Shown here piece after piece: positions 7,369 through 37,473 of a stretch of DNA of 64,000 bases (its first letter is position 1; each line of letters opens with the position of its first letter). The translations under genes were made by a program, and so were the position numbers. The stretch is from the NCBI RefSeq assembly GCF_015645445.1, contig NZ_JADOGI010000001.1, positions 117,917-181,916 of the forward strand. The letters run 5' to 3'. Source of the DNA: Nonomuraea cypriaca. Its GTDB lineage: Bacteria; Actinomycetota; Actinomycetes; Streptosporangiales; Streptosporangiaceae. Below the pieces are notes generated by a model, which saw only the letters and a list, made by a program, of their open reading frames with translations, made no database searches and was not told where the DNA came from.

Positions 7369-8871
7369 TCACCGGCTCGTCCGCCGGATCCCGCGGACGG
7401 CCGGAAGTGCGGTCGGGCCGGAATTGACGTTGACCTCGTGCTCCACGGTGACGCCGTCCACGTCGAAGCGGAGCACGAGCCGGTCGATGAACGGCGCTTC
7501 GAGGAAGTGCCACGTCAGGCACAGGACGTCTCCCACGGCGTCGTGGCCGGGCCGGGCGGCCCATTGGGCGGCGGCCAGGATGGGAGCGCAGGCGTCCTGA
7601 TAGGAGTGATGGAGCCGCCACACGCTCACGCCGGTGCGCTGCCGCACCCAGTCGCCGATTCCGTGTTCGATCGGATGGCGGCCGCGCTCGTCCTCGAGGA
7701 CGAGCAGCACGGAATCGGCCTGCACGTCGACCGACAGCGAACGCAGGCCGTGTTCGTTGGGTTCGAAGTCGTAGGCTTCCCGGAAGCCGGAACGGCACGC
7801 CGAGGCACGCAGCGGCTCAGGTTCACGGACGCGCAGCACCCATTGGCTGACCTCGTCATCCTCGTCCGCCTCGGACACCTGGTCCCGTGCTGTGCCGTCG
7901 AAGGCGTCACGGAACGTCTCCCGGATCATCTTCGGAAGGTCGTGATAGGTGTCGTCCCCCATGGCGCCGGTGACGACGACGACGCCGTCCTGCTCGGGGA
8001 AGATCATGCACTCCTGGCCGAAGATGCCGGAGGCGTTGTAGATCCCGTCCTCGGTCGTCCAGAACTGGTAGCCGTATCCGGAGTCCGCGACGGCGTCCGG
8101 AGCGGGGGGCACGAGTTCCTGACCGTTCCACGCACCGCTGAGGGCACTGCGGACATGCGGGGTGGACGCTTTCTGCGGCCACCCGTTCGGAAGGATCCGC
8201 CGCCCCTGCCACACGCCGTCCTGGAGGTAGAGGACGCCGAAGGAGAGCAGATCGCGGGGCCGCATCGACAGGCCGTTGCCGCCGCTGGCCACGCCTTCGG
8301 GATCCCGCTCCCAGTCGAAGTCCGTGATGCCCAGCGGCTCGAACAGGCGCGGGCGCAGATACTCGTCGACGGGCTGACCGGACACGCGCTGCACGATCGC
8401 CGAGAGCACATGGCTCGTCGTGCTGCTGTACATGAAACGGCGGCCCGGCAGCTCGGCCACCGGCTCCTCGAGGAACTCCTCGATCCAGCCGGTCCGGCGT
8501 AGGCGGGTCGTCGCGCCCGACAGCCCGCGACCGTGCCCGGTCCGCATGGTCAACAGGTCCCGGACTCGCATCCGGCTCAGATTCTCGCTCGGTACGGCGG
8601 GCAGCCGCCCGTCGAAGAAGCTCACCACGGGATCGTCGAGCCCGAGCAGCCCTTCGGCCTCGGCGAAGCCGACGGCCGTGCCGGTGAAGCTCTTGGTGGC
8701 CGAGTGAAGCTTGTGCTTGAGATCCGGTTCGTGCGGCCACTGCCACAGGTCGAGCATCGTCCGTCCGCGCCAGTGCACGAGGAGGGAGTGCAGCCTCATA
8801 TCCCTCTTCGCCAGCTCCTGCAGGAAGGCGCGTACCGGGCGCAGGTCAATGGTCGCGCGGTCGCTGGCCAT
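7369..8871 (-). CDS. beta-lactamase-fold serine hydrolase, copy 1
   Basis: The product (500 residues) belongs to the class-C beta-lactamase/D-aminopeptidase/esterase superfamily. The nucleophile motif is S57-A-T-K60, the second motif is Y148-S-S, and GHGRGLSGA and the LSMRPRDLLSFG segment follow. An extra C-terminal domain of about 160 residues follows the catalytic core. There is no signal peptide, so it acts in the cytoplasm and is more likely a peptidase or esterase than a drug-resistance enzyme. I start it at the ATG at 8871 because this gives the same length and upstream context (AAAGAA..GGTGA) as copy 2 at 35971. A strong terminator at 9103-9137 separates it from the operon upstream. 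Near-identical to copy 2, but in inverted orientation. Confidence 0.88.
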   Translation of the reverse strand: MASDRATIDLRPVRAFLQELAKRDMRLHSLLVHWRGRTMLDLWQWPHEPDLKHKLHSATKSFTGTAVGFAEAEGLLGLDDPVVSFFDGRLPAVPSENLSRMRVRDLLTMRTGHGRGLSGATTRLRRTGWIEEFLEEPVAELPGRRFMYSSTTSHVLSAIVQRVSGQPVDEYLRPRLFEPLGITDFDWERDPEGVASGGNGLSMRPRDLLSFGVLYLQDGVWQGRRILPNGWPQKASTPHVRSALSGAWNGQELVPPAPDAVADSGYGYQFWTTEDGIYNASGIFGQECMIFPEQDGVVVVTGAMGDDTYHDLPKMIRETFRDAFDGTARDQVSEADEDDEVSQWVLRVREPEPLRASACRSGFREAYDFEPNEHGLRSLSVDVQADSVLLVLEDERGRHPIEHGIGDWVRQRTGVSVWRLHHSYQDACAPILAAAQWAARPGHDAVGDVLCLTWHFLEAPFIDRLVLRFDVDGVTVEHEVNVNSGPTALPAVRGIRRTSR

Positions 8872-9102
8872 GATCACCGTTCTTTCGTGGGCAGGCCGGA
8901 AGCCGGCCGATCTTGTGTGGTCCGAGCGGGCATGGGGATCGCGCCCAGGCCGTGGCGGGTCCGGCCGTACGGGCAGGTCGCGTTGTGGCGCTGGGAAGCG
9001 GAAGGCCGGGGTCGGCGCCGGTTCACCCGAGGGCGACGGGTGCGGTGGTCCTTCCTCGTGATGACCCCGCGATCCGGGTGCGGCATCGGCGTGCAGGGCC
9101 GG

Positions 9103-9137
9103 GCTCCCGCGTCAGCCGGGGCGGCTGACGCGGGAGC
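9103..9137 (-). terminator. 15-bp stem terminator
   Basis: GCTCCCGCGTCAGCC pairs perfectly with GGCTGACGCGGGAGC around a 5-base loop, 6 bp past the stop of the leftward alpha/beta hydrolase gene. It closes the dehydrogenase operon and isolates the serine hydrolase gene, leaving about 230 bp (8872-9102) for a promoter of its own. Confidence 0.9.
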
Positions 9138-9142
9138 GGGTT

Positions 9143-9973
9143 TTACCGCTGGTTCAGTAATTCCGCCATGAACTCCTGGACCACGGGGATCACCGCACTG
9201 CCCTTGTGCGCGACGCCGGGGACGACATCGAAGCGCACCTCGATTCCGTGCTCGTCGAAGTTGGCGCGCAGACACTCCAGCCGCTCGATCCGGGTGCGGC
9301 CGGTCTTCTCCACGCCGTCCATCCAGTTGGGGCCGCCGACGTTGTTGATCTCCCAGGTCTCGACGTCGTCACCGCCGACGACCATCTGCACCGGCACCTT
9401 CCGCATGGCATCGAGGTCGACCTCGATGCCGAAGCGCTCCTTGAAACCCCCCGTACCGAGCCACCAGGGCAGCGAGTCGTCGACCTGGGTGATCCGGCCC
9501 GGCGCGCCGATCGACACGCCGGCCAGCCGGTCGGGATGGGCGTAGAAGAAGCGGTGCGCGAACTGCCCGCCACCGGAGAAACCGTGCAGGTAGAACGTCG
9601 CGGTCTCCGTGTTGAACTGTTCGCCGGCCTCGTCGACGATGTACAGCAGCTCCTCGTCGAAACGGATCCCTTCGTACTCAAGGAACTTGAAGCTGTGCAG
9701 CTCCCGCGGCTCCACCAGCCCCGCGGGGAACAGCGGGGTGAGAATGACGCAGCGGTGCTTGATCGCGAAGTCCTTCCACCGGTCGCGGTAGAGCTCCGCC
9801 GACCGGCCGGTGCCGTGCTGGATGACGACGAGCGGCAACGGGGCCGCCTCCGCCGTGTGGTCCTTCGGCACGTACAAGGCGTACAGGATGCGCTGGTCGT
9901 GCTGCGAGGCGAAGAACGGGGTCCCGCCGACGAAATGGGCCCCCTGCGCATCGGGTTCAGTGGTGCTGGGCAT
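9143..9973 (-). CDS. alpha/beta hydrolase, esterase-like
   Basis: This 276-residue cytoplasmic hydrolase has the nucleophile elbow LHGFSGGGQFAHR (G-x-S-x-G), an oxyanion region VVIQHGTGRSAELY, and a late histidine in VPGVAHKGS. This arrangement is typical of PHB-depolymerase-like/dienelactone-hydrolase-like esterases. The ATG at 9973 is chosen because GAGGAG lies 10 bases upstream and the preceding codons are Arg/Pro-rich noise. It is the last gene of the leftward operon that begins with the dehydrogenase at 13314, 110 bp after the cupin gene. It probably removes an ester or amide group from an intermediate; the substrate cannot be read from sequence. Confidence 0.82.
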   Translation of the reverse strand: MPSTTEPDAQGAHFVGGTPFFASQHDQRILYALYVPKDHTAEAAPLPLVVIQHGTGRSAELYRDRWKDFAIKHRCVILTPLFPAGLVEPRELHSFKFLEYEGIRFDEELLYIVDEAGEQFNTETATFYLHGFSGGGQFAHRFFYAHPDRLAGVSIGAPGRITQVDDSLPWWLGTGGFKERFGIEVDLDAMRKVPVQMVVGGDDVETWEINNVGGPNWMDGVEKTGRTRIERLECLRANFDEHGIEVRFDVVPGVAHKGSAVIPVVQEFMAELLNQR

Positions 9974-10083
9974 GGGACGTGTACTCCTCGATCGTCGATG
10001 TGCTGGTGTGGACCGCCCGGTCCGGTGGTGAGCTCCTGGCCATGTCGCACCGTTCGCCACCATCGCGGTCAGAGTGGCGGCCG

Positions 10084-10827
10084 TCAGAAGGCGGTCAGTA
10101 CGCGGCGGAAGTGCGCGACCTCCGGCAGGCCCGCGATCGTGTCGCCGATGAGTTCGCGCCATTGCCGGAAGCCGTCGGAGTTACGGAAGCCTGAGAGGTG
10201 GTCGTCGATCGAGTCCCAGCCGACGACGAGGCGATACTCCAGCGGATTCTCGTGGGAACGCTCCAGCTGGAACGTCCGTGCCCCCTTCGCCCGCTGGAAC
10301 AGCGGCGCCGCGGCGGCGACCGCCGCCTCGAACTGCTCCTCCCGGCCCGGAAGCACGATGATCCGCGCGACCTCGTGCACCATGCCCGCAGATCCAGCCG
10401 ATTCGACCGGCCCGCCCGGGTGCTCGGCGTCGACGCGGGAGTGTTCGCCCGAGGCGACGAGTGTCCTGGTCGCGTCGACGGATGCGTACGTCCAGAAGAT
10501 TTTCATGGGTGCCGAGTCGGAGGCGTTCTCGAAGTGGTGGGGGATGTTGGCCGGCACGAAGGTGGTGTCGAAGGTTCGCAGCGGCGTCCGCACTCCGTCG
10601 ATGTCGACGATGGCGTCGCCCTGGATGACGATCACGGATTCGGCGACGTTGTGGGTGTGGTGTGCGATCGCCGCGCCGGGTTCGAAACCGGTGATGCCGT
10701 TGAGGAAGGCCGTCGCGCCGCGCGCGCTGGTCACGAGCGGCACCGTGCGGGCTCCGGCTCCGCGGTCCTTGGCCGGAAGCTCGTCGGGGCGGAAAATCGA
10801 GGGCCGCTGGTGGATGCCGGCGCTCAT
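10084..10827 (-). CDS. cupin domain fused to an antibiotic-biosynthesis-monooxygenase-like domain
   Basis: The 247-residue protein has an N-terminal single cupin (about residues 15-120: GAAIAHHTHNVAESVIVIQGDAIVDIDG and FVPANIPHHFEN, giving the usual His cluster for a metal). A dimeric alpha-beta-barrel (ABM/Dabb-like) follows at about 155-245, with VHEVARIIVLPGREEQFEAA and RTFQLERSHENPLEYRLVVGW. The ATG at 10827 overlaps the stop of the aldehyde dehydrogenase gene by four bases, indicating translational coupling. Either domain can be catalytic (dioxygenase, isomerase, cofactor-free oxygenase) or a ligand binder. The pairing in one chain is unusual but known in actinobacteria. A separate ABM fragment survives in the right arm at 35646. 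Confidence 0.8.
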   Translation of the reverse strand: MSAGIHQRPSIFRPDELPAKDRGAGARTVPLVTSARGATAFLNGITGFEPGAAIAHHTHNVAESVIVIQGDAIVDIDGVRTPLRTFDTTFVPANIPHHFENASDSAPMKIFWTYASVDATRTLVASGEHSRVDAEHPGGPVESAGSAGMVHEVARIIVLPGREEQFEAAVAAAAPLFQRAKGARTFQLERSHENPLEYRLVVGWDSIDDHLSGFRNSDGFRQWRELIGDTIAGLPEVAHFRRVLTAF

Positions 10828-12200
10828 GCCGTCACCTCCGGGCCGATCCAGACGGTTTTCACGTTGACGAACTCCCTGATGCCGTAGCCGCCGAGTTCGC
10901 GGCCGTAACCTGACTTCTTGATGCCGCCGAACGGCAGGCGGGGGTCGGACGCCACCATCGCGTTGACGAAGACGGCGCCTGCGTCGATGAGGGGTACGAG
11001 GCGCCGCGCCTCGTCGGGGTCCGAGGTCCACAGTGCCGCGCCGAGCCCGTACTCGGTCCGGTTGGCCAGCTCGACGGCCTCCGCGGCGTCGTTGACCCGG
11101 GTCACGCTCGCCACCGGGCCGAAGGTCTCCTCCGTGAACGCCGCCATCTCCGGGGTGACGTGGTCGAGGAGGGTGGGCGGGTAGAAGAAGCCGGGGCCGT
11201 CGACGAGACGGCCGCCCAGCAGAAGGGTGGCTCCCGCCGCCACGGTGCGCCGGACCTGGTCGTGCAGGACGTCGCGGAGATCCCCTCGCGCCAGCGGCCC
11301 GATCTGCGTGGCCTCGTCCGAGGGGTCGCCGAGGACGAGCGCGCCGGCCTTGCCGGCGACGAGTTCGACGAACGCGTCCGCGACCCGCTGGTCGACGATG
11401 AGGCGTTTGGCGTTGACGCAGCTCTGGCCGACGGTGTTGAACCGCGAACGCACCGCCGCCTGTGCGGCCTCCTCCAGGTCGGCGTCGGCGAGCACGATGA
11501 ACGGGTCCGAGCCGCCCAGTTCCAGGACGTGCTTCTTCAGGTGGGCGCCGGCCTGCGCGGCCACGAGCGCACCCACCTCGGTGGAGCCGGTGACGGTGAC
11601 GGCCGCGACCCGGTCGTCGGCGATGAGACCGGCCACCGCGGCCGGTTCGACCAGCAACGTCGAACAGAGTCCCTCCGGCGCGCCGGCCCGCCGCACGACC
11701 TCTTCGAGCGCCACCGCGCAGGCCGGCACGTTGCTCGCGTGCTTGAGGATGGCCCCGTTCCCCGCCGCCAACGCGGGTGCGAGGAAGCGGAAGAACTGCC
11801 AGAACGGATAGTTCCACGGCATGATCGCGAGCAGGACGCCCAGCGGTTCGAAGACGACCGTGCTCTCCGTCGCGCTGGACCGGATCGGCTCGGCCGCGAG
11901 GTACCGCTCGCTGTTCTCCGCGTAGTGGTCGAGCGTCCACGCCGACTTCTCGACCTCCGCACGTGCTTCCGCGATCGGTTTGCCCATCTCAAGAGTGATC
12001 AGCTGCGCGAAGCGCTCCACATCGGCTCGCAGTTCGCGGGCGATCGTACTCAGCAGCGGTAGCCGCTGCCCGATGGGTGTCGCGCGCCAGTTCCGCTGCG
12101 CCGCTACGGCGGCCGACAGGGCGGCCTCGATCTGCTGGGGAGAGTGCACGTCATATCGGGCGACTCGTTCCCCGGTCGCAGGGTTCAGAGACAGGGGCAA
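10824..12200 (-). CDS. NAD(P)-dependent aldehyde dehydrogenase, succinate-semialdehyde type
   Basis: The product (458 residues) is a complete aldehyde dehydrogenase: cofactor-binding MPWNYPFWQFFRFLAPALA and TGSTEVG, the general base Glu in LELGGSDPF, and the catalytic Cys in GQSCVNAKR. Length and the start MPLSLNPATGE resemble the GabD-type succinate-semialdehyde dehydrogenases. Substrate assignment within the family is unsafe; another omega-semialdehyde such as aminoadipate semialdehyde is equally possible here. It sits 40 bp behind the dehydrogenase at 12241 and overlaps the cupin gene. A fragment of a second copy (VNDAAGAVEPANRTEYGLG...) lies at 35776-35955. Confidence 0.88.
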   Translation of the reverse strand: MPLSLNPATGERVARYDVHSPQQIEAALSAAVAAQRNWRATPIGQRLPLLSTIARELRADVERFAQLITLEMGKPIAEARAEVEKSAWTLDHYAENSERYLAAEPIRSSATESTVVFEPLGVLLAIMPWNYPFWQFFRFLAPALAAGNGAILKHASNVPACAVALEEVVRRAGAPEGLCSTLLVEPAAVAGLIADDRVAAVTVTGSTEVGALVAAQAGAHLKKHVLELGGSDPFIVLADADLEEAAQAAVRSRFNTVGQSCVNAKRLIVDQRVADAFVELVAGKAGALVLGDPSDEATQIGPLARGDLRDVLHDQVRRTVAAGATLLLGGRLVDGPGFFYPPTLLDHVTPEMAAFTEETFGPVASVTRVNDAAEAVELANRTEYGLGAALWTSDPDEARRLVPLIDAGAVFVNAMVASDPRLPFGGIKKSGYGRELGGYGIREFVNVKTVWIGPEVTA

Positions 12201-12240
12201 TGCCTGATCCTTTCAAGGGTGCTGATCGAAGAAGACGACA

Positions 12241-13314
12241 TCAGTTCCGGCTCTCGCCTCGCAGCCGCGCCACCACGTGACCGGCGAATTCGGCCGTGCC
12301 CAGGTGCCCGCCGAGGTCGCGGGTGCGGGATCCCGGTTCGTCGAGCACGCTCTCCACGGTCGACTCGATACCGGCTGCCGCCGCGACCAGGGCGTCGTTC
12401 CCGTCGCGGCGGCCCCGCCAGTCGAGCAGCATCGCCGCGGAGAGGATGAGTGATGTCGGGTTGGCGAGGCCCTTGCCCGCGATGTCCGGTGCGGACCCGT
12501 GTTGCGCCTGGGCGACCGCGATGTCGTGCCCGGCGTTGAGGGAGCCGCCGAGCCCGAGGCTGCCCGAGAGTTCGGCCGCCTCGTCGGACAGGATGTCGCC
12601 GAACATGTTGGTGGTCACTATCACGTCGAACTCGTCCGGCCGCCGGATCAGGGCGGCCGCGGCGGCGTCGACGATCAGCTCGTCGAGCCGGACGTCGGGA
12701 AACTCCGCTGCGACCTCGCGTACCACACGGAGGAACAGCCCGTCGGAGAGTTTCAGCACGTTGGCCTTGTGAACCGCCGTCACCTTGCCACGGCGCCGGC
12801 GGGCGAGCTCGAACGCCGAGTGGGCCACGCGTTCACAGCCCCGTGCGCTGATCTTCCTGATGCTGAAGGCGTTGTCGGCGTCCGGCATGAACTCACCGGT
12901 TCCCGCGTACATGTTGCGGTCGGAGTAGAAGCCCTCCGTGTTCTCCCGGACGATGACCAGGTTCATCGGCGCCCGCAGTACGCTCAGCTCTGCCCTGGAC
13001 CGGCACGGGCGGATGTTGGCGAACAACTCGTACCGCACGCGAAGCTCGGCGGAGGGGTTGATCCCTCCCTCCTGCCGCGGCGGGTATTCGTAATGCGACA
13101 CCGGGCCGAGGATCACGCCGCCGACCTGGGGTATCCGGTCCAGCACGGCCTGCGGAAGCGTCGTGCCCTCCCGGGCGAGACTGGCGAAGCCGATGTCCGC
13201 GGTCTCGAGTTCGAGGCCGAGGTCGTACGCATCGTCGGCCGCGTGGAGCACCTCCAGGGTCGGGGCGACGATCTCCGGGCCGATGCCGTCGCCGGGTAGT
13301 ACGAGCACTTTCAT
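12241..13314 (-). CDS. isocitrate/isopropylmalate dehydrogenase family enzyme
   Basis: This 357-residue protein is a beta-decarboxylating hydroxyacid dehydrogenase: N-terminal LPGDGIGPEIV, substrate-loop region RENTEGFYSDRNMYAG, catalytic KANVLKLSDGLF, and the family signature NMFGDILSDEAAELSGSLGLGGS. This class oxidises isocitrate, 3-isopropylmalate, homoisocitrate, tartrate or malate; the usual leucine pathway neighbours (leuC/D) are absent, so an isopropylmalate role is unlikely. The ATG at 13314 directly precedes the conserved first strand. It opens the leftward operon with aldehyde dehydrogenase, cupin and hydrolase. An aconitase gene lies at 20673, which would fit an isocitrate-like or homologous substrate. 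Confidence 0.85.
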   Translation of the reverse strand: MKVLVLPGDGIGPEIVAPTLEVLHAADDAYDLGLELETADIGFASLAREGTTLPQAVLDRIPQVGGVILGPVSHYEYPPRQEGGINPSAELRVRYELFANIRPCRSRAELSVLRAPMNLVIVRENTEGFYSDRNMYAGTGEFMPDADNAFSIRKISARGCERVAHSAFELARRRRGKVTAVHKANVLKLSDGLFLRVVREVAAEFPDVRLDELIVDAAAAALIRRPDEFDVIVTTNMFGDILSDEAAELSGSLGLGGSLNAGHDIAVAQAQHGSAPDIAGKGLANPTSLILSAAMLLDWRGRRDGNDALVAAAAGIESTVESVLDEPGSRTRDLGGHLGTAEFAGHVVARLRGESRN

Positions 13315-13527
13315 GTGGTGACCAAGCCTCTTTCCGAATCTTCGTCCCGAGGGACGACGGCGCCCGGCGGTAACGCGCGGAGCAGCCAGTACAGTTCGCT
13401 CTGTGTGAAGTTCTTCGAGCGTCGGCACGCGCTCGTCGCAGTGTGCGATCACCCGCTGCCGCGAGCACATCGATCCCGCCGGTCACTCTCCGCTCGACCG
13501 GACCTGTGCACGGTCAGGACGGGGAGA

Positions 13528-13560
13528 GGTGACGACGCCGGTCGATCGTGCGTCGTCACC
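13528..13560 (-). terminator. terminator of the left-arm transporter operon
   Basis: GGTGACGACG and CGTCGTCACC form a perfect 10-bp stem whose right arm includes the TGA stop codon (13556-13558) of the last ABC gene. The hairpin separates the transporter operon from the dehydrogenase operon. The following 213 bp to 13315 hold no gene and should contain the dehydrogenase promoter. Confidence 0.75.
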
Positions 13561-14389
13561 GCGTGCCCGCGAAGGCGGCCCGCAGTTCGGAGACACGCTC
13601 GGGGTGCCAGTCCGGCCCTGGCGCGGACGACAGCAGCATGTCGGTGTAGGGATGTCGCGGCCGGCGTAGCACCTCGGCCGTGGCACCGTGCTCGACGGCC
13701 TCTCCCTTGTACATCACCAGGATCTCGCCGGTCACCTCACCGACCACGGCGAGGTCGTGCGTGACGAAGACCAGGCTCACGCCGGTCTCGGCGCGGATCC
13801 TGTTGAGCAAGGTCAGGATCTGCGCCTGGACGGAGACGTCCAGAGCGGACACCGCCTCGTCGAGCACGAGCACCGCGGGATCCACCGCAAGCGCTTTTGC
13901 GATGGCGACCCGCTGCCGCTGCCCGCCGCTGAGCTGGTGGGGCCGGGAGCCGAGGTGCTTCTCGGAGAGCCCGACGTAGTCCATCAGCTCAGCGATCCGG
14001 GCCCGCACGGTCCCCTTTGCCGGATCGGGCATGTGCCAGCGCAGCACGTCACGGAGCGCCGTCTCGACACTCAGCCTGCGGTCCAGTGAACCGTAAGGAT
14101 CTTGGAAGACCATCTGGACTTCCTTGGCCCGGCGCAGGCGTGCGGACCTGCCGTGGTCCTTCCGTTCCCGGGTACGGCCGTTGATCACGATCGTCCCCGA
14201 GTCGGGGTGGGCGAGACCCACCAGCATGCGGGCGACGGTGGTCTTGCCGGAACCCGACTCGCCGACCAGCCCGAGGGACTCGCCTTCGGCGAGGCTGAAG
14301 CTCACGTCCTTGGCCGCGACGACGTGGGCCGATCCGCGTCGTGCCGGATACGTCTTGGTCAGCCCGCTGACGCGCACCGCCTCGATCAT
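13556..14389 (-). CDS. OppF/DppF-type ABC transporter ATPase, left arm
   Basis: The 277-residue ATPase has Walker A GESGSGKTT, Q-loop MVFQDPYGSLD, signature LSGGQRQRVAIA, Walker B VLVLDEAVSALD and the His switch VTHDLAVV. It couples ATP hydrolysis to import through the two permeases encoded upstream. Length and Q-loop are typical of the OppF partner in peptide/nickel-type systems, but the usual C-terminal oligopeptide domain is short or absent. It overlaps the OppD-like gene by 4 bp and is last in the operon SBP-B-C-D-F. The DEAV variant of Walker B also occurs in its right-arm counterpart at 33640. Confidence 0.9.
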   Translation of the reverse strand: MIEAVRVSGLTKTYPARRGSAHVVAAKDVSFSLAEGESLGLVGESGSGKTTVARMLVGLAHPDSGTIVINGRTRERKDHGRSARLRRAKEVQMVFQDPYGSLDRRLSVETALRDVLRWHMPDPAKGTVRARIAELMDYVGLSEKHLGSRPHQLSGGQRQRVAIAKALAVDPAVLVLDEAVSALDVSVQAQILTLLNRIRAETGVSLVFVTHDLAVVGEVTGEILVMYKGEAVEHGATAEVLRRPRHPYTDMLLSSAPGPDWHPERVSELRAAFAGTR

Positions 14390-15213
14390 GCGGACGCCTC
14401 CATGTCGTTCCGGGCCGCCTGACGCTCGGGGAGCCGCGGGACGGCCTCTGCCAGTGCCTTGGTGTACGGAGTCGTGGGGTTCACGAAGATCGTGGCGGCC
14501 TTCTGGTGCTCCACCACGGAACCGTCCTTCATCACGTAGACACGGTCGCAGTAGGCGGCCGCGAGCTGCAGGTCGTGGGTGATGAACAGGACACCCATCT
14601 CCCGCTCTCGCTGGAGCCGCCGGAGCAGGGCGAGCACCTCCGCTTGCGTGGTCACGTCCAGTGCGCTCGTCGCCTCGTCCGCGAGCAGCAGGCGCGGGCC
14701 GATGCTCAGCGCCGCGGCGATCACCACACGCTGGAGCATGCCGCCGGAGAGCTGATGCGGATAGGCGCGCAGCAGCCGGTCCGGGTTGTCCAGCCCGACC
14801 TCGCCGAACAACGACGTGATCTGCTCACGTGCCCGGGCCTTGGCGACACGGTGGACGTGCACGAGCCGCTCGGTGGCCGAGTCACCGATACGACGTACCG
14901 GGTTGAGCACGGCTCGAGGCTCTTGGAAGATCATGGCGGCAAGCTCCGAACGGACCTTTCGCACCACCGCCCGGTCGGCCGCGACCATGTCGTGTCCGAG
15001 GACCGAAATGCTCCCCTTCATGGACGCGTGATCTGGCACCAGCCGTAGTGCCGCTCTCGCTGTCGTCGACTTGCCGGAGCCGGACTCCCCGACCAGCCCC
15101 ACCGTCTCGCCCTCGGAGACGTGGAGGGACACGCCATGCAGGATCTGCCGGGAGCCTTCGGGGGCAGGCACCGACAGGTTGAGGTCTTCGATCGTCAGCA
15201 GCACGCGTGTCAC
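14386..15213 (-). CDS. OppD/DppD-type ABC transporter ATPase, left arm
   Basis: The product has Walker A GESGSGKST, Q-loop MIFQEPRAVLNPVRRIG, signature LSGGMLQRVVIAAAL, Walker B LLLADEATSALD and ITHDL. The start is a GTG at 15213 that overlaps the permease stop as GTGA, giving 275 residues. It is shorter than usual OppD proteins (about 330) because the cysteine-containing C-terminal oligopeptide domain is missing; the right-arm homologue keeps it. It forms a heterodimer with the OppF-like ATPase encoded next. Confidence 0.9.
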   Translation of the reverse strand: MTRVLLTIEDLNLSVPAPEGSRQILHGVSLHVSEGETVGLVGESGSGKSTTARAALRLVPDHASMKGSISVLGHDMVAADRAVVRKVRSELAAMIFQEPRAVLNPVRRIGDSATERLVHVHRVAKARAREQITSLFGEVGLDNPDRLLRAYPHQLSGGMLQRVVIAAALSIGPRLLLADEATSALDVTTQAEVLALLRRLQREREMGVLFITHDLQLAAAYCDRVYVMKDGSVVEHQKAATIFVNPTTPYTKALAEAVPRLPERQAARNDMEASA

Positions 15214-17026: not shown

Positions 17027-17028
17027 GC

Positions 17029-27990: not shown

Positions 27991-28031
27991 GTACCTACTA
28001 CCAAACTGCACGATCTGTTGGTAGATACTAC
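27991..28031. promoter_or_regulatory. operator-like inverted repeats between RpiR and the C45 operon
   Basis: CTACTACCAA (27995-28004) faces TTGGTAGATACTAC (28018-28031), and the latter contains the small palindrome GTAG-ATA-CTAC. The region lies in the 75-bp gap between divergent starts. The GTAG/CTAC core is shared with 19040-19076. Confidence 0.6.
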
Positions 28032-28048
28032 AGCAGCTAGGAGTTCGG

Positions 28049-29209: not shown

Positions 29210-29215
29210 CACCCG

Positions 29216-30844: not shown

Positions 30845-30855
30845 GGGGAGCCCAC

Positions 30856-31803
30856 GTGCTACGGACCATTGCCCGCAACATCGCGGAGGTCGTGGTGACA
30901 CTGATCCTGGCGTCGTTCCTGATCTTCATCGCGATGTACCTCGCGCCGGGGGACAAGGCGGCGCTGCTCGCCGGCGGGCCGGAGAACCTCAGCCCGCAGA
31001 CGCTCGCGGCGATCAACGCGCAGTACCACTTCGACGAACCGGTCTGGGTGCAGTACGGTTACTGGCTCGGGAACGCCCTGGGCGGCGACTTCGGCCGCTC
31101 GTACGTGTACGGGCAGAACGTCTCGAGCCTGCTCGGCTCGCGGATGGACGTCACGCTGGTTCTGGTGCTCTACACGGCGACGATCGTGATCTGCGCCGGA
31201 GTGGTGCTCGGGGTCGTCTCCGCCCTGCGACGCCGCCGGCCGGCCGACTCGGTGATCGTGGCCGTGACGACGTTCCTGGGGGGTGTGCCCCCGTTCGTCG
31301 CCGCCGTGGCACTGATCGGCGTGTTCTCGACGCTACTCGGCTGGTTCCCCACCACGGGCGCGGGTGACGGACTGCTCGGCAGAATCCATCACCTGACGCT
31401 GCCGGCGCTCGCACTCGCGGTCGGCTCGATCGCCGGCATCACCCGGGTCACGCGGCAGTCGATGGTCGGCCAGCAGGACGCGCCGCACGTCGACGTCGCC
31501 CGCACGCGCGGGCTGCCGTACGGTCATATCGTCCGCCAGCACCTGCTGCGGAACTCGCTGGCGCCGATCATCACCATGGCGGGTCTGGTCACGGCCAGTA
31601 CGATCGCGGGCACGGTGATCGTCGAGCAGGCGTTCGGGTTGAGCGGCGTCGGCAAGCTGTTGATTGACGCGATCGACCAGCGCGATCTGCCGGTCACGCA
31701 GGCGGTGCTGCTGTTCCTGGTGCTCGCGTACATCGTCACCACCCGGATCGCCGACGTGCTGCAACGGCTGGCCGATCCGCGGCTTCGGGAGAGTGCGTCG
31801 TGA
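30856..31803 (+). CDS. OppB/DppB-type ABC permease, right arm
   Basis: 315-residue permease with MYLAPGDKAALLAGGPENLSPQ, YHFDEPVWVQYGYWLG and coupling loop PHVDVARTRGLPYGHIVRQHLLRNSL. I take the GTG at 30856 as start because GGGGAG lies five bases upstream and it begins directly before the first helix; the preceding 13 codons belong to the control region. It overlaps the OppC-like gene by 4 bp. Confidence 0.9.
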   Translation: MLRTIARNIAEVVVTLILASFLIFIAMYLAPGDKAALLAGGPENLSPQTLAAINAQYHFDEPVWVQYGYWLGNALGGDFGRSYVYGQNVSSLLGSRMDVTLVLVLYTATIVICAGVVLGVVSALRRRRPADSVIVAVTTFLGGVPPFVAAVALIGVFSTLLGWFPTTGAGDGLLGRIHHLTLPALALAVGSIAGITRVTRQSMVGQQDAPHVDVARTRGLPYGHIVRQHLLRNSLAPIITMAGLVTASTIAGTVIVEQAFGLSGVGKLLIDAIDQRDLPVTQAVLLFLVLAYIVTTRIADVLQRLADPRLRESAS

Positions 31804-32648
31804 CCGCCGCTGCCATCGATGTGGCGCCACCCGTACCGCGCAGTCGTTCCGGTACGGCGTTCTGGCTGTCCGTCGCGTTCCTGGTGGTCGTGATCGGGTG
31901 CGGTCTGCTCGCGCCGTGGATAGCGCCACACGATCCAACCGATGCCGACCTCGGCGCCTCGCTGCAGGGCATCAGCGGCGCACACTGGCTCGGCACCGAC
32001 CAGTCCGGCCAGGACATCGCCTCCCGTCTGATGTACGGCGTGCGGACCGGACTGCTGAGTCCGCTGCTGATCCTGGCGTTCGCGCTCGTGTTCGGGCCGC
32101 CGATCGGAATCCTCGCCGCCTGGAAGGGCGGCTGGGTGGACACCGCGATCTCACGAGCGACCGATGCGGGGATCGCGTTTCCCGGCCTGCTGTTCGCCGT
32201 GCTGATGATCGCCGTGTTCGGCGAGGGCATCGCCTCGGCGGTGATCGCCCTGGGCCTCGCCTACACCCCGGCGGTGTCGAAGTTGGCGCGCAGCGCGGCC
32301 CTGGCAGAGTGCCGCAAGGAGTACGTCGAGGCGTACCGTGTGCTCGGCGTCGGCGGCATGTCGATCTGTCTGCGGCGTCTGACACCCCGCGTGATCCCCT
32401 TGATTCTCGGGTACTGCGTGGTCCTGTTCGGCGAGGCGCTGATGAGCATGGCCGCGCTGAGCTACCTCGGCCTCGGCGCGCAACCGCCTGCGTCGGACTG
32501 GGGCTTGATGGTCTCCGAGGGCCAGCTGCCGCTGATTCAAGGTGCCCTGCTGCCGTCGCTCGCGCCGGGCGCGGCGATCGCGCTGACCGTGGTCGCGTTC
32601 AACGTCGTCGGAGTACGGCTCGCCGACAAATTGGGAGTGGACCGATGA
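31800..32648 (+). CDS. OppC/DppC-type ABC permease, right arm
   Basis: 282-residue permease with the DppC loop SGAHWLGTDQSGQDIASRLMYG and coupling loop ECRKEYVEAYRVLGVGG. GTG start overlapping the preceding stop; the last bases overlap the OppD-like start. Six helices predicted. Its likely partner is the OppB-like protein directly upstream. Confidence 0.9.
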   Translation: MTAAAIDVAPPVPRSRSGTAFWLSVAFLVVVIGCGLLAPWIAPHDPTDADLGASLQGISGAHWLGTDQSGQDIASRLMYGVRTGLLSPLLILAFALVFGPPIGILAAWKGGWVDTAISRATDAGIAFPGLLFAVLMIAVFGEGIASAVIALGLAYTPAVSKLARSAALAECRKEYVEAYRVLGVGGMSICLRRLTPRVIPLILGYCVVLFGEALMSMAALSYLGLGAQPPASDWGLMVSEGQLPLIQGALLPSLAPGAAIALTVVAFNVVGVRLADKLGVDR

Positions 32649-33643
32649 GTCTGCGCTATGCGTCGTTGACGGTCCGCATGGTCGGCACAGCGCGGCCGGT
32701 GCTGGACGGCGTGTCGTTCACGGTCGAACCGGGTGAGATCGTCGGGCTGGTCGGGGAGTCCGGTTCGGGCAAATCGACCACCGCCCGTGCCGCCCTGGGA
32801 CTGCTGCCCGACGGCGCTCGCGTCGACGGCACCGTAAGCATGGCCGGCGACGACGTACTCGCGCTCGACGACAGCGGACTACGCCGGCTGCGCTCCCGGC
32901 GTCTGGCGATGATCTATCAGGACCCGAAGTCGGCGCTGAACCCGGTCCGCACCGTCGGCGCGTACGCGAGCGAGCAGTTGCGCACCGCGCACGGTATGGC
33001 CCGCGACGAGGCACGCGACCGGGTACTCGAGCTGTTCGACGCGGTCGGGCTTCCTGATCCGGCCCGGCACTACGACCAGCACCCGCACGAACTCTCGGGC
33101 GGGATGCTGCAGCGGGTCGTGATCGCTGCGGCACTCGCGGGCGAACCAGACATCCTGCTCGCCGACGAGGCCACCAGCGCACTGGACGTCTCGACCCAAG
33201 CATCCATCGTCGCCTTGCTGCTCCGGCTACGGCGAGAGCACGGCCTCGGGTTGTTGTTCATCACCCATGACCTGGCATTGGCGTCCGCGATCTGCGACAG
33301 GGTGTGCGTGATGTACGCCGGACGGATCATCGAGGTTCAACCGGGCGACCGGCTGTTCACGTCGCCGCTACATCCATACTCCGCCGGCCTGCGCGACAGC
33401 ACACCTCAACTGCTGTCCGGCCGGCCGATCCGCCCGATCCCCGGTGCTCCGCCGTCGCTCGGCGAGTCCACGACCGGTTGCGGGTTCGAGCCGCGCTGCC
33501 CGTACGCCGCGCAGATGTGCCGAGACCGCGTACCGGACCTCGAGCGCAGTAGTGATGACGGCGCTGTCGCCTGTCACCGGCACACCGAACTGGACCTGCG
33601 AGCGCAGGCCGGTGGCCTGGCACGTACGGAAGGGACACCATGA
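32645..33643 (+). CDS. OppD/DppD-type ABC transporter ATPase, right arm
   Basis: 332-residue ATPase: Walker A GESGSGKST, Q-loop MIYQDPKSALNPVRTVG, signature LSGGMLQRVVIAAAL, Walker B ILLADEATSALD and ITHDLALA. Unlike its left-arm counterpart it keeps the C-terminal oligopeptide-transporter domain with the cysteine set CGFEPRCPYAAQMC and a later ACH, which in some family members holds an iron-sulfur cluster. ATG at 32645 overlapping the permease stop. Confidence 0.92.
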   Translation: MSLRYASLTVRMVGTARPVLDGVSFTVEPGEIVGLVGESGSGKSTTARAALGLLPDGARVDGTVSMAGDDVLALDDSGLRRLRSRRLAMIYQDPKSALNPVRTVGAYASEQLRTAHGMARDEARDRVLELFDAVGLPDPARHYDQHPHELSGGMLQRVVIAAALAGEPDILLADEATSALDVSTQASIVALLLRLRREHGLGLLFITHDLALASAICDRVCVMYAGRIIEVQPGDRLFTSPLHPYSAGLRDSTPQLLSGRPIRPIPGAPPSLGESTTGCGFEPRCPYAAQMCRDRVPDLERSSDDGAVACHRHTELDLRAQAGGLARTEGTP

Positions 33644-34485
33644 GCGAGACGGCCCTGCGGGTCGACGGTCTGCGCAAGACGTTTCGGAGCCGGTCGGACA
33701 CGCGCCGGGACGTGGTCGCTGTGGACGACGTCTCGTTCCAACTCGCGCGCGGACAGTGCCTGGCCATCGTGGGCGAGTCCGGCTGCGGCAAGACGACGAT
33801 CGCCCGGATCATCGCCGGGCTCGAACGACCGGACACGGGAACCGTCGCGGTCGGGGGCCACGATGTCGCCACCCGGCCGCATGGCCGCCGAGCCCGCTTG
33901 CGCCGCGCACGCGCCGTGCAGCTGGTGTTCCAGAATCCGTACAGCTCCTTCGACCCGAGCCAAGACATCGAGGCGAGCCTGGACTACGCCTTGGCACTGC
34001 ACGGACACCGCGATCGCGCAGAGCGTCGGCGCCGCACGCATCAGCTGCTGGACCGGGTCGGGCTGGGCACCCGAGAACGGGAGTCAAGACCGCGGTGGCT
34101 CAGCGGTGGGCAGCTGCAACGCGCGGCGATCGCGCGCGGGCTGTGCATCGAACCGGACGTACTGGTGTTGGACGAGGCGGTCGCCGCGCTGGACGTCTCG
34201 ATCCAGGCACAGATCCTGTTGCTGCTCGACGAGCTGCGGCGCGAGCTCGAGGTGTCGTACGTGTTCATCAGCCATGATCTGGCCGTCGTTGAAGCGATCA
34301 GTGAGCAGATCCTGGTGTTGCGGAAAGGGGCGTTGGTGGAGTCGGGAGCCACTCGCGACGTGCTGCGCGATCCGCGGCACGAATACACCGCGATGCTCCT
34401 GGACAGCGTGCCACGACCGGGTTGGGTGCCCGCCGGCCCGCGGCGGGAGTCAGCCGGTGAGAACCATGAGCACGTCGACGGGTGA
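33640..34485 (+). CDS. OppF/DppF-type ABC transporter ATPase, right arm
   Basis: 281-residue ATPase with Walker A GESGCGKTT, Q-loop LVFQNPYSSFDPSQDIE, signature LSGGQLQRAAIARGL, Walker B VLVLDEAVAALD and ISHDLAVV. ATG overlaps the OppD-like stop. It completes the five-gene importer of the right arm. The signature has GGQLQ rather than GGQRQ, and the DEAV Walker B is shared with the left-arm OppF. Confidence 0.92.
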   Translation: MSETALRVDGLRKTFRSRSDTRRDVVAVDDVSFQLARGQCLAIVGESGCGKTTIARIIAGLERPDTGTVAVGGHDVATRPHGRRARLRRARAVQLVFQNPYSSFDPSQDIEASLDYALALHGHRDRAERRRRTHQLLDRVGLGTRERESRPRWLSGGQLQRAAIARGLCIEPDVLVLDEAVAALDVSIQAQILLLLDELRRELEVSYVFISHDLAVVEAISEQILVLRKGALVESGATRDVLRDPRHEYTAMLLDSVPRPGWVPAGPRRESAGENHEHVDG

Positions 34486-34567
34486 CCACGAGCGGTCGGC
34501 GCTTGGCTCGACCGGTCTGCGCCACCATGCCCCGATCGGTGAACTGGTCCAGGGAAGCACCGCGTGA
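34466..34567 (+). CDS. 33-codon ORF bridging OppF and the LDH2 gene
   Basis: An ATG at 34466, inside the OppF 3' end, opens a frame of 33 codons that ends TGA overlapping the GTG start of the next gene (GTGA). It reads MSTSTGDHERSALGSTGL and so on. It could serve for translational coupling, or be the leftover N-terminus of a deleted regulator. No family recognised. Confidence 0.35.
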   Translation: MSTSTGDHERSALGSTGLRHHAPIGELVQGSTA

Positions 34568-35649
34568 GCGCCGACGAGCCGGCCACGCGTACGGTTGCCG
34601 CCGACGAACTGTTGAGCTTCGGCGGGAAGGTGCTCGTCCAGACCGACGTGCCGGAGAAGGACGCACATCTGCTTGCCCACAGCCTCGTCCAGGCCGATCT
34701 GTGGGGACATCCCTCCCACGGCACGCTCCGTCTGCCTTGGTATGTCGAGCGGCTCCGGACCGGTGCCATGTCCGCCACCACGGATCCCACCGTCGTGATC
34801 GACACGGGCTCCCTGCTCGTACTCGACGGGCGTGACGGCATCGGCCAAGTGCTCACCGACCGTGCCGTGACCTTGGGCACCGAGCGCGCCAAAGCACACG
34901 GGATCAGCGGCGTCGCGGTCCGCAACAGCAATCACTTCGGGATGGCCGCCTACTTCACCCGCAAGTCCGCCGATGCCGGCTGCATCGGCCTGCTCGTCTC
35001 CAATGCCAGCCCCGCCATGGCGCCTTGGGGCGGTCGCCGCAAGTCGATCGGCACGAACCCCTGGTCGATCGCGGCCCCTGCCGGCAGGTACGGCGTCGCG
35101 GTCATCGACCTCGCCAACACCGCGGTCGCGCGCGGCAAGCTCTACCTCGCCGCCGAACGCGGCCAGGCGATCCCGTACGGGTGGGCCGTAGACGCCGCAG
35201 GAGCGGACACCAACGACCCACAAGCCGGTATCGAGGGGCTGATCCTGCCGATGGCCGGAGCGAAGGGTTATGTGATCGCGTTCATGATGGACGTTCTCGC
35301 CGGAGTCCTCACCGGCAGCGGCTTCGGCGACTCCGTCGTCGGCCCCTACGATCCCGACAGGCCCAGTGGCTGCGGACACCTCCTGATGACCATAGACGTT
35401 GCCGCGCTCACCACCCTGACCGAGTTCGAGGCCCGTATGGAGACGCTGATCGACGCGACCAAGGCAGTCGACAAGGCCGCGGGAACGGAAGAGATCTTCT
35501 TTCCGGGAGAGCTCGAGGCCCGCGCCGCCCAGCGACGCACTGCCGAAGGCATCCCCATCACGGACAGCACCTGGGCGAGGCTGACCGCGCTCGCCGAGCA
35601 GACCGGAACCGCGCTACCGCACGCCGTCGCCGCCGAAGGGACACAATGA
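34564..35649 (+). CDS. LDH2/malate dehydrogenase-type NAD(P)-dependent oxidoreductase
   Basis: The 361-residue enzyme belongs to the LDH2/MDHG2 family, with the catalytic His segment GHPSHGTLRLPWYVERL, NSNHFGMAAYFTRK, NASPAMAPWGG and GTNPWSIAAPA. Family members reduce 2-oxo acids or cyclic imino acids (malate, lactate, ureidoglycolate, 2,3-diketogulonate, delta1-piperideine-2-carboxylate). GTG start overlapping the 33-codon ORF. As the last intact gene of the C45-importer operon it probably works on the hydroxy acid, 2-oxo acid or cyclic imine released from the imported molecule; the imine option would fit lysine/ornithine-like chemistry. Confidence 0.88.
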   Translation: MSADEPATRTVAADELLSFGGKVLVQTDVPEKDAHLLAHSLVQADLWGHPSHGTLRLPWYVERLRTGAMSATTDPTVVIDTGSLLVLDGRDGIGQVLTDRAVTLGTERAKAHGISGVAVRNSNHFGMAAYFTRKSADAGCIGLLVSNASPAMAPWGGRRKSIGTNPWSIAAPAGRYGVAVIDLANTAVARGKLYLAAERGQAIPYGWAVDAAGADTNDPQAGIEGLILPMAGAKGYVIAFMMDVLAGVLTGSGFGDSVVGPYDPDRPSGCGHLLMTIDVAALTTLTEFEARMETLIDATKAVDKAAGTEEIFFPGELEARAAQRRTAEGIPITDSTWARLTALAEQTGTALPHAVAAEGTQ

Positions 35650-35958
35650 TCAGCCTCACCGCCGACCTGCGGGCTCGCCTGTGAGACCTGGAACCGTTCC
35701 TGGCCGCGATCGCCGAGAACGCCGAACGCCCGTTCACCGACGAGCCCGGCTGCGTGTACTTCGACGTGCTCCACCGGGTCAATGACGCCGCGGGGGCCGT
35801 CGAGCCGGCCAACCGGACCGAGTACGGGCTCGGCGCGGCACTGTGGACCTCGGACTTCGGACCTCGGACCTCGGACTTCGACGAGGCGCGGCGCCTCGTA
35901 CCCCTCATCGACGCAGGCGCCGTCTTCGTCAACGCGATGGTGGCGTCCGATCCCACAA
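35646..35958 (+). pseudogene. chimeric scar: monooxygenase fragment fused to an aldehyde-dehydrogenase fragment
   Basis: ATG 35646 overlaps the LDH2 stop and starts an ABM-like protein (MISLTADLRARL) that hits a stop at once. The same frame then resumes with EPFLAAIAENAERPFTDEPG and YFDVLHR. At about 35776 it passes into VNDAAGAVEPANRTEYGLG, then VPLIDAGAVFVNAMVASDP, which matches codons about 355-415 of the aldehyde dehydrogenase at 10824-12200 almost exactly, and ends just before LPFGG. Both parts are truncated and neither can be active. It is followed directly by serine hydrolase copy 2. Confidence 0.85.
35845..35879 (+). repeat. five tandem GGACYTC heptamers in the aldehyde-dehydrogenase scar
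   Basis: GGACCTC-GGACTTC-GGACCTC-GGACCTC-GGACTTC stand head to tail where the intact gene at 10824-12200 has a single GGACCTCGGACCCC. The expansion adds 21 bp net, hence no frame change, and indicates slippage in a region no longer under selection. Confidence 0.85.
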
Positions 35959-35970
35959 AGAAAGGTGACC

Positions 35971-37473
35971 ATGACGAACGACCACGCGACCATCGGCATG
36001 CGCCCGGTTCACGCGCTGTTGCAGGAACTCGAGAAGAAGGGCATGCGGCTGCACTCCCTGCTCGTGCACTGGCGCGGACGGACGGTGCTCGACCTGTGGC
36101 AGTGGCCGCACGAACCGGATCTCAAGCACAAGCTTCACTCGGCCACCAAGAGCTTCACCGGCACGGCCGTCGGGTTCGCCGAGGCCGAAGGGCTGCTCGG
36201 GCTCGACGATCCCGTGGTGAGCTTCTTCGACGGGCGGCTGCCCGCCGTACCGAGCGGGAATCTGAGCCGGATGCGAGTCCGGGACCTGTTGACCATGCGG
36301 ACCGGGCACGGTCGCGGGCTGTCGGGCGCGACGACCCGCCTGCGCCGGACCGGCTGGATCGAGGAGTTCCTCGAGGAGCCGGTGGTCGAGCTGCCGGGCC
36401 GCCGTTTCATGTACAGCAGCACGACGAGCCATGTGCTCTCGGCGATCGTGCAGCGCGTGTCCGGTCAGCCCGTCGACGAGTATCTGCGCCCGCGCCTGTT
36501 CGAGCCGCTGGGCATCACGGACTTCGACTGGGAGCGGGATCCCGAAGGCGTGGCCAGCGGCGGCAACGGCCTGTCGATGCGGCCCCGCGATCTGCTCTCC
36601 TTCGGCGTCCTCTACCTCCAGGACGGCGTGTGGCAGGGGCGGCGGATCCTTCCGAACGGGTGGCCGCAGAAAGCGTCCGCCCCGCATGTCCGCAGTGCCC
36701 TCAGCGGTGCGTGGAACGGTCAGGAACTCGTGCCCCCCGCTCCGGACGCCGTCGCGGACTCCGGATACGGCTACCAGTTCTGGACGACCGAGGACGGGAT
36801 CTACAACGCCGCCGGTATCTTCGGCCAGGAGTGCATGATCTTCCCCGAGCAGGACGGCGTCGTCGTCGTCACCGGCGCCATGGGGGACGACACCTATCGC
36901 GAGCTTCCGAAGATGATCCGGGAGACTTTCCGGGCCGCCTTCGCCGGCGCGGACGGAGACGACCCGTTCCAGGCGGCCGATGCTGAAGCGGTCGACCGGT
37001 GGGTGCTGCGCGCCCGCGAACCTGAGCGGCTGCGCCCCTCGGGGCACCGGCTCGGCTTCCGGGAGATCTACGACTTCGAACCCAACGAGCACGGCCTGCG
37101 TTCGGTCTCGATCGACGTACGGGCCGATTCGGTGCTGCTGGTCCTTGAGGACGAGTGTGGCCGGAATGAGATCGAACATGGCATCGGCCATTGGGTGCGG
37201 CAGCGCACCGGCGTGAGCGTGTGGCGGCTGCACCACTCGTACCAGGACGCCTGCGCTCCCATCCTGGCCGCCGCCCAATGGGCCGCCCGGCCCGGCCACG
37301 ACGCCGTGGGAGACGTCCTGTGCCTGACGTGGCACTTCCTCGAAGCGCCGTTCATCGACAAGCTCACCCTCCGTTTCGACGGGGATGCCGTCACCGTCGA
37401 GCACGAGGTCAACGTCAACTCCGGCCCGACCGCCCTTCCCACGATCCGCGGGATCCGGCGGGTGAGCCGGTGA
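35971..37473 (+). CDS. beta-lactamase-fold serine hydrolase, copy 2
   Basis: The 500-residue product has the same motifs as copy 1: S-A-T-K nucleophile at 57-60 and Y-S-S at 148-150. ATG 35971 has an AAAGG site 5-6 bases upstream. The first 330 or so residues are nearly identical to copy 1. Residues about 335-400 differ strongly (FAGADGDDPFQAADAEAVDR versus FDGTARDQVSEADEDDEVSQ). From about 418 the sequences are again nearly identical, including over 100 consecutive identical bases encoding the LAAAQWAARPGHDAVGDVL region. The gene is cytoplasmic, ends the right arm, and faces the secreted-protein gene across a shared terminator. Confidence 0.9.
   Translation: MTNDHATIGMRPVHALLQELEKKGMRLHSLLVHWRGRTVLDLWQWPHEPDLKHKLHSATKSFTGTAVGFAEAEGLLGLDDPVVSFFDGRLPAVPSGNLSRMRVRDLLTMRTGHGRGLSGATTRLRRTGWIEEFLEEPVVELPGRRFMYSSTTSHVLSAIVQRVSGQPVDEYLRPRLFEPLGITDFDWERDPEGVASGGNGLSMRPRDLLSFGVLYLQDGVWQGRRILPNGWPQKASAPHVRSALSGAWNGQELVPPAPDAVADSGYGYQFWTTEDGIYNAAGIFGQECMIFPEQDGVVVVTGAMGDDTYRELPKMIRETFRAAFAGADGDDPFQAADAEAVDRWVLRAREPERLRPSGHRLGFREIYDFEPNEHGLRSVSIDVRADSVLLVLEDECGRNEIEHGIGHWVRQRTGVSVWRLHHSYQDACAPILAAAQWAARPGHDAVGDVLCLTWHFLEAPFIDKLTLRFDGDAVTVEHEVNVNSGPTALPTIRGIRRVSR

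Follow-up and report, generated by a model that had tools for sequence, protein, structure and literature searches.

A mirror-like importer locus in Nonomuraea cypriaca that appears to combine an eroded catabolic island with a separately descended RpiR-C45-Opp module

The window analyzed here, a stretch of 64,000 nucleotides of the soil actinomycete Nonomuraea cypriaca (contig NZ_JADOGI010000001.1, positions 117,917 to 181,916), contains two Opp-type ABC importers that are transcribed away from each other and end, on both outer sides, in similar serine hydrolase genes. We consider it fairly probable, for the mosaic as a whole, that the left arm and the genes in the middle (5908–25783) represent, in eroded form, a catabolic island that other actinomycetes also have, that the right arm (27071–37473) descended separately and belongs to a widespread and apparently undescribed type of seven-gene module, and that the outer genes were likely subject to gene conversion. 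The gene order is far beyond chance, yet it is composite. Likely gene conversion and a common module plan can make separately descended arms resemble one designed mirror system.

Pfam and NCBIfam scans revealed, for the left arm from the inside outward, a binding protein (SBP), OppB, OppC, OppD, OppF, an Iso_dh-family dehydrogenase (IsoDH), an aldehyde dehydrogenase (ALDH), a cupin-ABM fusion, an alpha/beta hydrolase, and the serine hydrolase bla_L. The right arm consists of C45, SBP, OppB, OppC, OppD, OppF, LDH2, and bla_R, and between the arms lie RpiR_L, an aconitase, GntR1, an SGNH hydrolase, GntR2, an LLM-class (F420-type) oxidoreductase lacking its N-terminus, and RpiR_R (Table 1). Most of this agrees with the initial annotation, namely the two importers with family-5 lipoproteins and outward transcription, a PF00144 hydrolase at both ends, and the distribution of the remaining enzymes and the two GntR genes; it had overlooked the LLM-class oxidoreductase, relics of five genes, and the fact that the aconitase is the second one in the genome. 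The RpiR genes, described there as transcribed outward, both point inward and are divergent from their own importers. The importers are indeed diverged, but the binding proteins, thought to be roughly half identical, share only 41.5% of their residues, compared with 36% for the RpiR proteins, 50–55% for the Opp subunits, and 89% for the serine hydrolases. GntR1 and GntR2 are 69% identical. The G+C content is even over both arms, and the locus lies on one 182-kb contig.

The separate descent of the arms was apparent from SBP+OppB trees (40 chosen rows of 78 for the approximately unbiased (AU) test, with a test group picked after the first tree had been viewed). The left arm grouped with three genomes of the same genus, Nonomuraea (G012, G031, and G035), and with Saccharopolyspora soli, and the right arm grouped, on long branches, with Saccharopolyspora elongata; ten other Nonomuraea have a module that is placed apart from both arms. 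Forcing the two arms together cost 127 log-likelihood units (p-AU 1.75e-62). Judged by these trees, the arms are not sisters. For the C45 and LDH2 proteins of the right arm, the nearest named relatives belong to the Nocardioidaceae (82% identity in a metagenome-assembled genome, 71–72% in Nocardioides), which hints at acquisition from this family; a donor locus was not found. Among 394 genomes of the class, no close donor of the right arm appeared, the best non-self match having 60% identity.

The left cassette is 79–92% identical in G012, G031, and G035. A single contig carries it in G035, whereas in each of the other two genomes it is split over two contigs with the break within the ALDH gene or between ALDH and IsoDH (gene calls in relatives were made with a G+C-position script, and the starts are approximate). 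The left hydrolase had matches at 1e-60 in four of 118 genomes, i.e., the source genome and these three, and IsoDH had matches at E ≤ 1e-90 in 13 of 197 genomes: the source genome, the same three at 82–86%, and nine at 47–49%. The left-type island is also present in S. soli and, with another importer, in two Streptomyces. In S. soli, the cassette is intact (RpiR // C45-SBP-OppBCDF-IsoDH-ALDH-cupin-ABM-alpha/beta hydrolase-serine hydrolase). Next to it come a kinase/class III aminotransferase fusion and an aconitase, then genes for a PALP enzyme, a class III aminotransferase, and an SBP_8-type importer, and finally GntR1, SGNH, gamma-glutamyltransferase (GGT), and GntR2. The two Streptomyces genomes (G562 and G813, from the genus of Streptomyces griseus), the two closer of four matches in 392 genomes, retain IsoDH-ALDH-cupin-ABM, the alpha/beta and serine hydrolases, the fusion, a S. 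soli-type aconitase, GGT, and RpiR; in place of Opp-C45, they have a cyclase-family gene and an importer of the SBP_3 type (Pfam in G562, tblastn in G813). Because these two genomes hold the core genes with a different importer, the catabolic core seems to be conserved and the importer exchangeable. In comparison with G035, 14 left-island genes had ratios of nonsynonymous to synonymous substitutions (dN/dS) of 0.12–0.27, indicative of purifying selection. A further pairing of importer and core was seen at one locus of another genome (G711), where a diverged Opp-type importer (23–44% identity) lies beside pieces of ALDH and cupin-ABM.

The erosion of the window copy is evident from relics of five genes, which lie at the places expected from the relatives and are each intact in at least one of these. 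The two remaining parts of the kinase/aminotransferase fusion are 78.5% and 80.3% identical to the S. soli protein of 775 residues (tblastn), which has APH and class III PLP (pyridoxal phosphate) domains. Upstream of SBP_L, the end of a C45 gene remains, PCENDYEFLPRRPYDGPGGDRT in the window versus PCENDYEVLPWRLYDGPGGDRT in S. soli; weaker remnants at this position were found in G012 (E 1e-5) and G035 (E 0.002–0.04), and the match in G031 was too weak for any claim. The ornithine-type aminotransferase, located between RpiR_L and the aconitase in the window, is intact in G012, G031, G035, and S. soli, and GGT is nearly complete in G031, G035, S. soli, G562, and G813. The LLM-class oxidoreductase (25917–26684) is probably another broken gene; its N-terminus appears to be missing because the match begins at about profile position 51–58.

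If the module is defined as a divergent RpiR gene beside C45-SBP-OppB-C-D-F, the right arm is complete and the left arm is complete except that C45 is a relic. The initial annotation had proposed a search for the joint presence of C45, Opp, RpiR, and the serine hydrolase in other genomes. Among the 80 named loci retained from 130 confirmed ones, RpiR divergently adjoins C45 in 75 and SBP-Opp follows in 74; both features are present in 68 of the 73 loci not cut by contig ends. Thus, the C45-Opp-RpiR combination is widespread, but the serine hydrolase was found in only one of the 80 named loci, that of S. soli. LDH2 (>100 bits) was found in none of the loci L061–L160. At E ≤ 1e-30, C45 had matches in 43 of 197 genomes, among them none in G012 or G035 and one of 30% identity in G031; at E ≤ 1e-100, it was found in 19 other Nonomuraea genomes of the 197, which, by their handle numbers, fall inside the 118-genome set searched for the left hydrolase. 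Matches also occur in many named actinomycetes, and in an even draw over the class, a match at 1e-90 was present in six of 394 genomes, including the source genome. Conversely, the left IsoDH (1e-60) was absent from 19 of 20 named C45-module genomes, picked by us from the 80 loci. The arms therefore occur apart in relatives, which is the first half of the finding (separate occurrence and no co-induction) that had been named in advance as speaking against one two-branch system.

The right-arm C45 protein scores far above the cut-off of NF040521 and retains the Gly-Cys processing dyad, which we take to be the mark of the C45 family; in aligned homologues, Cys is conserved in 98 of 98 and Gly in 97 of 98. 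It thereby resembles isopenicillin N acyltransferase-like N-terminal nucleophile hydrolases, but among solved structures it matched only 2x1c, 2x1d, and 2x1e (E 1e-15), and its gene lies in an importer operon. Likewise, the importers share with other Opp/Dpp family-5 systems the SBP_bac_5 lipoprotein and OppB, C, D, F in operon order, whereas the divergent RpiR gene and the C45 gene in the operon are features of the window. SBP_R, the binding protein searched against solved structures, matched peptide, nickel, and agrocinopine binders, none of them closely (best E 2e-22). Literature searches, covering titles and the starts of abstracts, found no paper on a C45-Opp-RpiR module. The module is compact, widespread, and apparently undescribed, has a sharp predicted operator, and offers a target for assigning functions to bacterial C45 proteins.

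This operator, GTAR-N6-YTAC, was first spotted in left-type promoters and was then counted in a set including them (80 RpiR-importer intergenic regions: 75 C45 loci, both window arms, and three left-type loci). It is present in 52 of the 80 regions, compared with a mean of 0.2 and a maximum of one in 20 shuffles, and the same half-sites with spacers of 3–5 or 7–10 nt occur in at most three loci. Altogether, the intergenic sequence (20.3 kb) has 54 sites, versus two in the remaining 1.42 Mb of the same loci. Among the 18 loci L063–L080, 17 have the RpiR-C45 pair and all 17 have the site; several of these are genomes already counted, and the first set included L066. The site is present in every left-type promoter of the genus (four) and in that of S. 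soli. In the window, exact copies are found only at 19042 and 19062, both in the left promoter, and at 5112. The latter (GTAGAAAGATCTAC, 5112–5125) is situated away from any RpiR gene. The right promoter has no exact copy; sites with one mismatch start at 27933, 27963, and 27988, and only the last lies between the genes. A second palindrome, GAGATCTC, occurs in 45 of the 80 intergenic regions and in neither window arm, and other conserved exact palindromes were found in subsets of the loci. Each RpiR protein probably controls its own arm. For RccR of Pseudomonas, half-sites of the TGTAGT/ACTACA type have been described, with two printed 15-bp sites with a spacer of 5 and also a 28-bp form (PMC5489143). 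The half-site agrees with that predicted here, but the GTAR/YTAC spacer is 6 rather than 5, and the targets are different.

The outermost genes had been regarded as near-identical. This is true for a tract of 813 bp with only seven mismatches (about 99%), but not for the genes as a whole, which are 92.6% identical in DNA, with 104 mismatches in the 684 positions outside the tract (flanks of about 85%). None of 5,000 permutations equalled the runs of the tract, either with all sites or with family-variable sites only. Outside the tract, bla_L and bla_R are little closer to each other than either is to the G012 gene (80–82%), and still they are nearest to each other (80/84 support). With tract identity far above that of the flanks, variable sites included, the two hydrolases were likely homogenised by recent gene conversion. 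The ALDH and ABM sequences attributed to both arms are intact only on the left; the right arm holds a broken ABM/ALDH chimera. Over 181 bp, its ALDH scrap has four mismatches to the window's own ALDH, in addition to gaps (86% identity when these are counted), and is 70–75% identical to six other island ALDH genes, and its ABM part is 41% identical to the ABM protein following LDH2 in one other Nonomuraea locus (L169; E 2e-4). The ABM remnant peptide gave no match as a tblastn query, and the intact ABM of L169 did align. This scar appears to have been patched from the left arm; accordingly, the outer ends would be alike largely because of exchange between the arms. Within the ALDH scrap, there is a short tandem expansion, GGACTTCGGACCTCGGACCTCGGACTTC, at about 35850–35885. 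The two 99%-identical tracts are inverted and about 28 kb apart, and could let the whole interior invert.

On the basis of the protein families, the following function is proposed, with the substrate predicted by class only. Each RpiR would repress its own importer, on the left via the GTAR-N6-YTAC palindrome and on the right via a diverged site. The Opp systems would import an amide-linked, peptide-like conjugate, and C45, lost on the left and present on the right, would split its amide bond, presumably in the cytoplasm because no signal peptide is visible by eye. On the left, the dedicated aconitase would isomerise the released hydroxy-carboxylate, the NPS-type isocitrate-like dehydrogenase would then oxidatively decarboxylate the isomerised acid, and ALDH would oxidise an aldehyde. 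The oxidation of a 2-hydroxy acid would fall to LDH2 on the right. Over the locus as a whole, the serine, alpha/beta, and SGNH hydrolases would remove ester or amide groups. Import of such a conjugate, cleavage by C45, and oxidation of a hydroxy-carboxylate are likely as a function. The import of peptide-like, possibly N-acylated substrates suggested initially is thus retained as a prediction, with an amidase-type C45 enzyme and a C45-Opp linkage seen in 68 of 73 loci, but not as part of one two-branch system.

The aconitase is clearly of the AcnA type, also by NF006757 (1271 bits, cut-off 686), and is 59–61% identical to the other AcnA of the genome, on contig C28. The window IsoDH keeps the Lys and Asp stretches of the Iso_dh family, which have a catalytic role. 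However, it has NPSAELR where 6lky has SVNVTLR, an example of the motif SxNxxLR that we take to be the substrate-recognition motif of isocitrate dehydrogenases, and an assignment as a plain isocitrate dehydrogenase was rejected. NPSxxxR is present in 14 of 16 aligned dehydrogenases; the other two, from G145 and G073 and outside these islands and operons, have NPH. These two of the nine 47–49% homologues had been omitted from the first alignment and were added later. In seven other Nonomuraea genomes (L168–L174), a GntR1-like gene is divergent from one operon with an SBP_8-type importer, IsoDH (NPS), an Asp/Glu racemase-family protein, a DUF1537-type kinase, a class II aldolase, LDH2, and aconitase (Pfam in L168, with ABM also in L169; tblastn in all seven). 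ABM is detectable in five, two of which have it only in part, and the aldolase is a 23-residue match in one. Because these genomes hold them in one operon, IsoDH, LDH2, and aconitase likely belong to one type of carboxylate pathway, and the operon itself possibly encodes an undescribed one. The kinase and aldolase are of the kind found in DUF1537-kinase acid-sugar pathways; in window positions 1–45000, tblastn gave only weak matches (E 0.001 and 0.009, that of the kinase inside the aconitase gene), and this pathway was rejected for the window, as was a tetronate pathway. The catabolic core, which seems to retain its enzymes when the importer is exchanged, is a target for studying a dehydrogenase clade lacking the isocitrate dehydrogenase motif. 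A more specific version, which we regard as unlikely, is that actinomycetes share a salvage route so far undescribed, where an amide-linked tricarboxylate conjugate enters through an RpiR-controlled Opp system, C45 cuts the amide, and a dedicated aconitase and a new clade of NPS-type dehydrogenases oxidise the freed acid, with the importer swapped between genera and the catabolic core kept; the conjugate may be, e.g., a citrate-type metallophore or a fungal alkyl-citrate amide.

Several observations weigh against the combined reading of descent and function. Isocitrate is not assured as a substrate because IsoDH lacks the motifs of isocitrate and homoisocitrate dehydrogenases in the alignments. 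Identity between the aconitases of the window and S. soli is only 57%, no higher than for other aconitases compared; by this value, the gene may have been replaced or may differ in kind between islands. The left cassettes of G012, G031, and G035 also lack C45, which is thus dispensable there. The exact operator is absent from 27 of 74 named RpiR-C45 promoters, the exact kin of the right arm is unsure because of its long branch, and the 813-bp tract is not distinguishable from a recent partial re-duplication. Lastly, the intact islands also have genes for the aminotransferase, GGT, and the kinase fusion, which suggest an amine part of the substrate as much as a carboxylate.

This last point leads to a possible but doubtful alternative, in which the main substrate of the intact island is a conjugate of an ornithine- or hydroxylysine-like amine or diamine; the kinase/phospho-lyase-type fusion would handle the amine together with ALDH and the class III aminotransferase, and GGT and C45 would cut amides. 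It would fit the APH and PLP domains of the fusion, the near full-length aminotransferase and GGT genes in relatives, and the polar amino acid type (SBP_3) of the importer in G562 and G813; in the window, however, the amine genes are broken, whereas aconitase, IsoDH, and ALDH are kept under selection, and a phospho-lyase activity would be assigned by analogy. A single two-branch system, with both importers feeding one pathway for N-acylated or peptide-like compounds and induced together, is improbable: the common module plan and the joint operon of LDH2, IsoDH, and aconitase homologues in seven genomes would suit it, but the arms are found apart, have separate ancestry, and differ in that only the left promoter has exact operator copies.

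That an assembly or contamination artefact joined unrelated pieces might be suspected from the 587 contigs and the contamination estimate of 8.1%, and was considered and rejected as very unlikely, given the single 182-kb contig, the even G+C content, the relics at places where relatives have intact genes, and estimates of 6–9% for other large genomes of the genus. An inverted duplication of one ancestral arm with subsequent divergence would explain the mirror order and the similarity of the outer genes, but hardly the low identities of the Opp subunits and binding proteins or an identity that forms a tract instead of a gradient; it was rejected under the AU-test model used, and we regard it as extremely improbable.

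Table 1. Coordinates (window positions) and supporting evidence for the genes, relics, and sites of the locus
Feature	Position	Strand	Evidence or remark
APH-type kinase/class III aminotransferase fusion relic	5908–7325	+	residues 1–256 and 563–775 remain; middle 306 residues gone, frame changed
bla_L, beta-lactamase-fold serine hydrolase	7369–8877	-	PF00144; intact; dN/dS 0.25 vs G035
Likely gene-conversion tract in bla_L	7944–8756	-	813 bp common with bla_R
Alpha/beta hydrolase (polyhydroxybutyrate-depolymerase-like)	9143–9973	-	no Pfam match; NF050058 43 bits, below cut-off 150; 86–87% in G012, G031, G035
Cupin-ABM fusion	10084–10827	-	PF07883, PF03992; 422 relatives at E ≤ 1e-20 among 3159 candidates
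ALDH (succinate-semialdehyde-dehydrogenase-like)	10824–12200	-	PF00171; NF006915 553 bits, below cut-off 730
IsoDH, isocitrate/isopropylmalate-type	12241–13314	-	PF00180; alignments; NPSxxxR where 6lky aligns SVNVTLR
OppF_L	13556–14389	-	Pfam scan
OppD_L	14386–15213	-	Pfam scan
OppC_L	15210–16076	-	51% to OppC_R, which carries PF00528 and OppC_N
OppB_L	16073–17026	-	Pfam scan
SBP_L, family-5 binding lipoprotein	17029–18660	-	PF00496
C45 3'-end relic PCENDYEFLPRRPYDGPGGDRT	18671–18862	-	matches S. soli cassette C45 at same place, E 9e-13 to 1e-9
Two exact predicted RpiR operator copies	19042–19075 (19042–19055, 19062–19075)		motif match, left promoter
RpiR_L regulator	19118–20044	+	PF01418
Ornithine-aminotransferase-type (class III) relic	20136–20490	-	residues 104–185 and 361–407; 68–89% identity
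AcnA-type aconitase, second in genome	20631–23339	+	TIGR01341 1188 bits, cut-off 945
Second alpha/beta hydrolase relic, frameshifted	23506–23684	+	69–76% to intact G031 gene, the only intact copy seen
GntR1 (FCD)	23746–24429	+	PF07729, PF00392
SGNH/GDSL hydrolase	24426–25007	+	PF13472
GGT C-terminal relic	24991–25110	+	71–75%
GntR2 (FCD), end of left-type island	25118–25783	-	Pfam scan; S. soli counterpart at same place, 75%
RpiR_R regulator (HTH and SIS)	27071–27973	-	Pfam scan
C45 predicted autoproteolytic amidase/acyltransferase, Gly117-Cys118	28049–29209	+	NF040521 208 bits, cut-off 85
SBP_R, family-5 binding lipoprotein	29216–30844	+	PF00496
OppB_R	30817–31803	+	Pfam scan
OppC_R	31800–32648	+	Pfam scan (PF00528, OppC_N)
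OppD_R	32645–33643	+	Pfam scan
OppF_R	33640–34485	+	Pfam scan
LDH2-type dehydrogenase	34564–35649	+	PF02615; nearest named relatives Nocardioides, 71–72%
Broken ABM/ALDH chimera (scar)	35646–35954	+	stop after 12 codons
bla_R, second serine hydrolase	35965–37473	+	PF00144
Likely gene-conversion tract in bla_R	36086–36898	+	813 bp common with bla_L

The left serine hydrolase, the copy that was scanned, scored 192 bits with the model of 3-succinylated cholic acid synthase (cut-off 800), which by this score is a distant relative only. Outside the locus, a separate sugar cluster at 44010–56146 encodes xylose-isomerase-like, WbsX, apiosidase-like, and GH2 proteins together with a ribose-type ABC importer and a LacI regulator.

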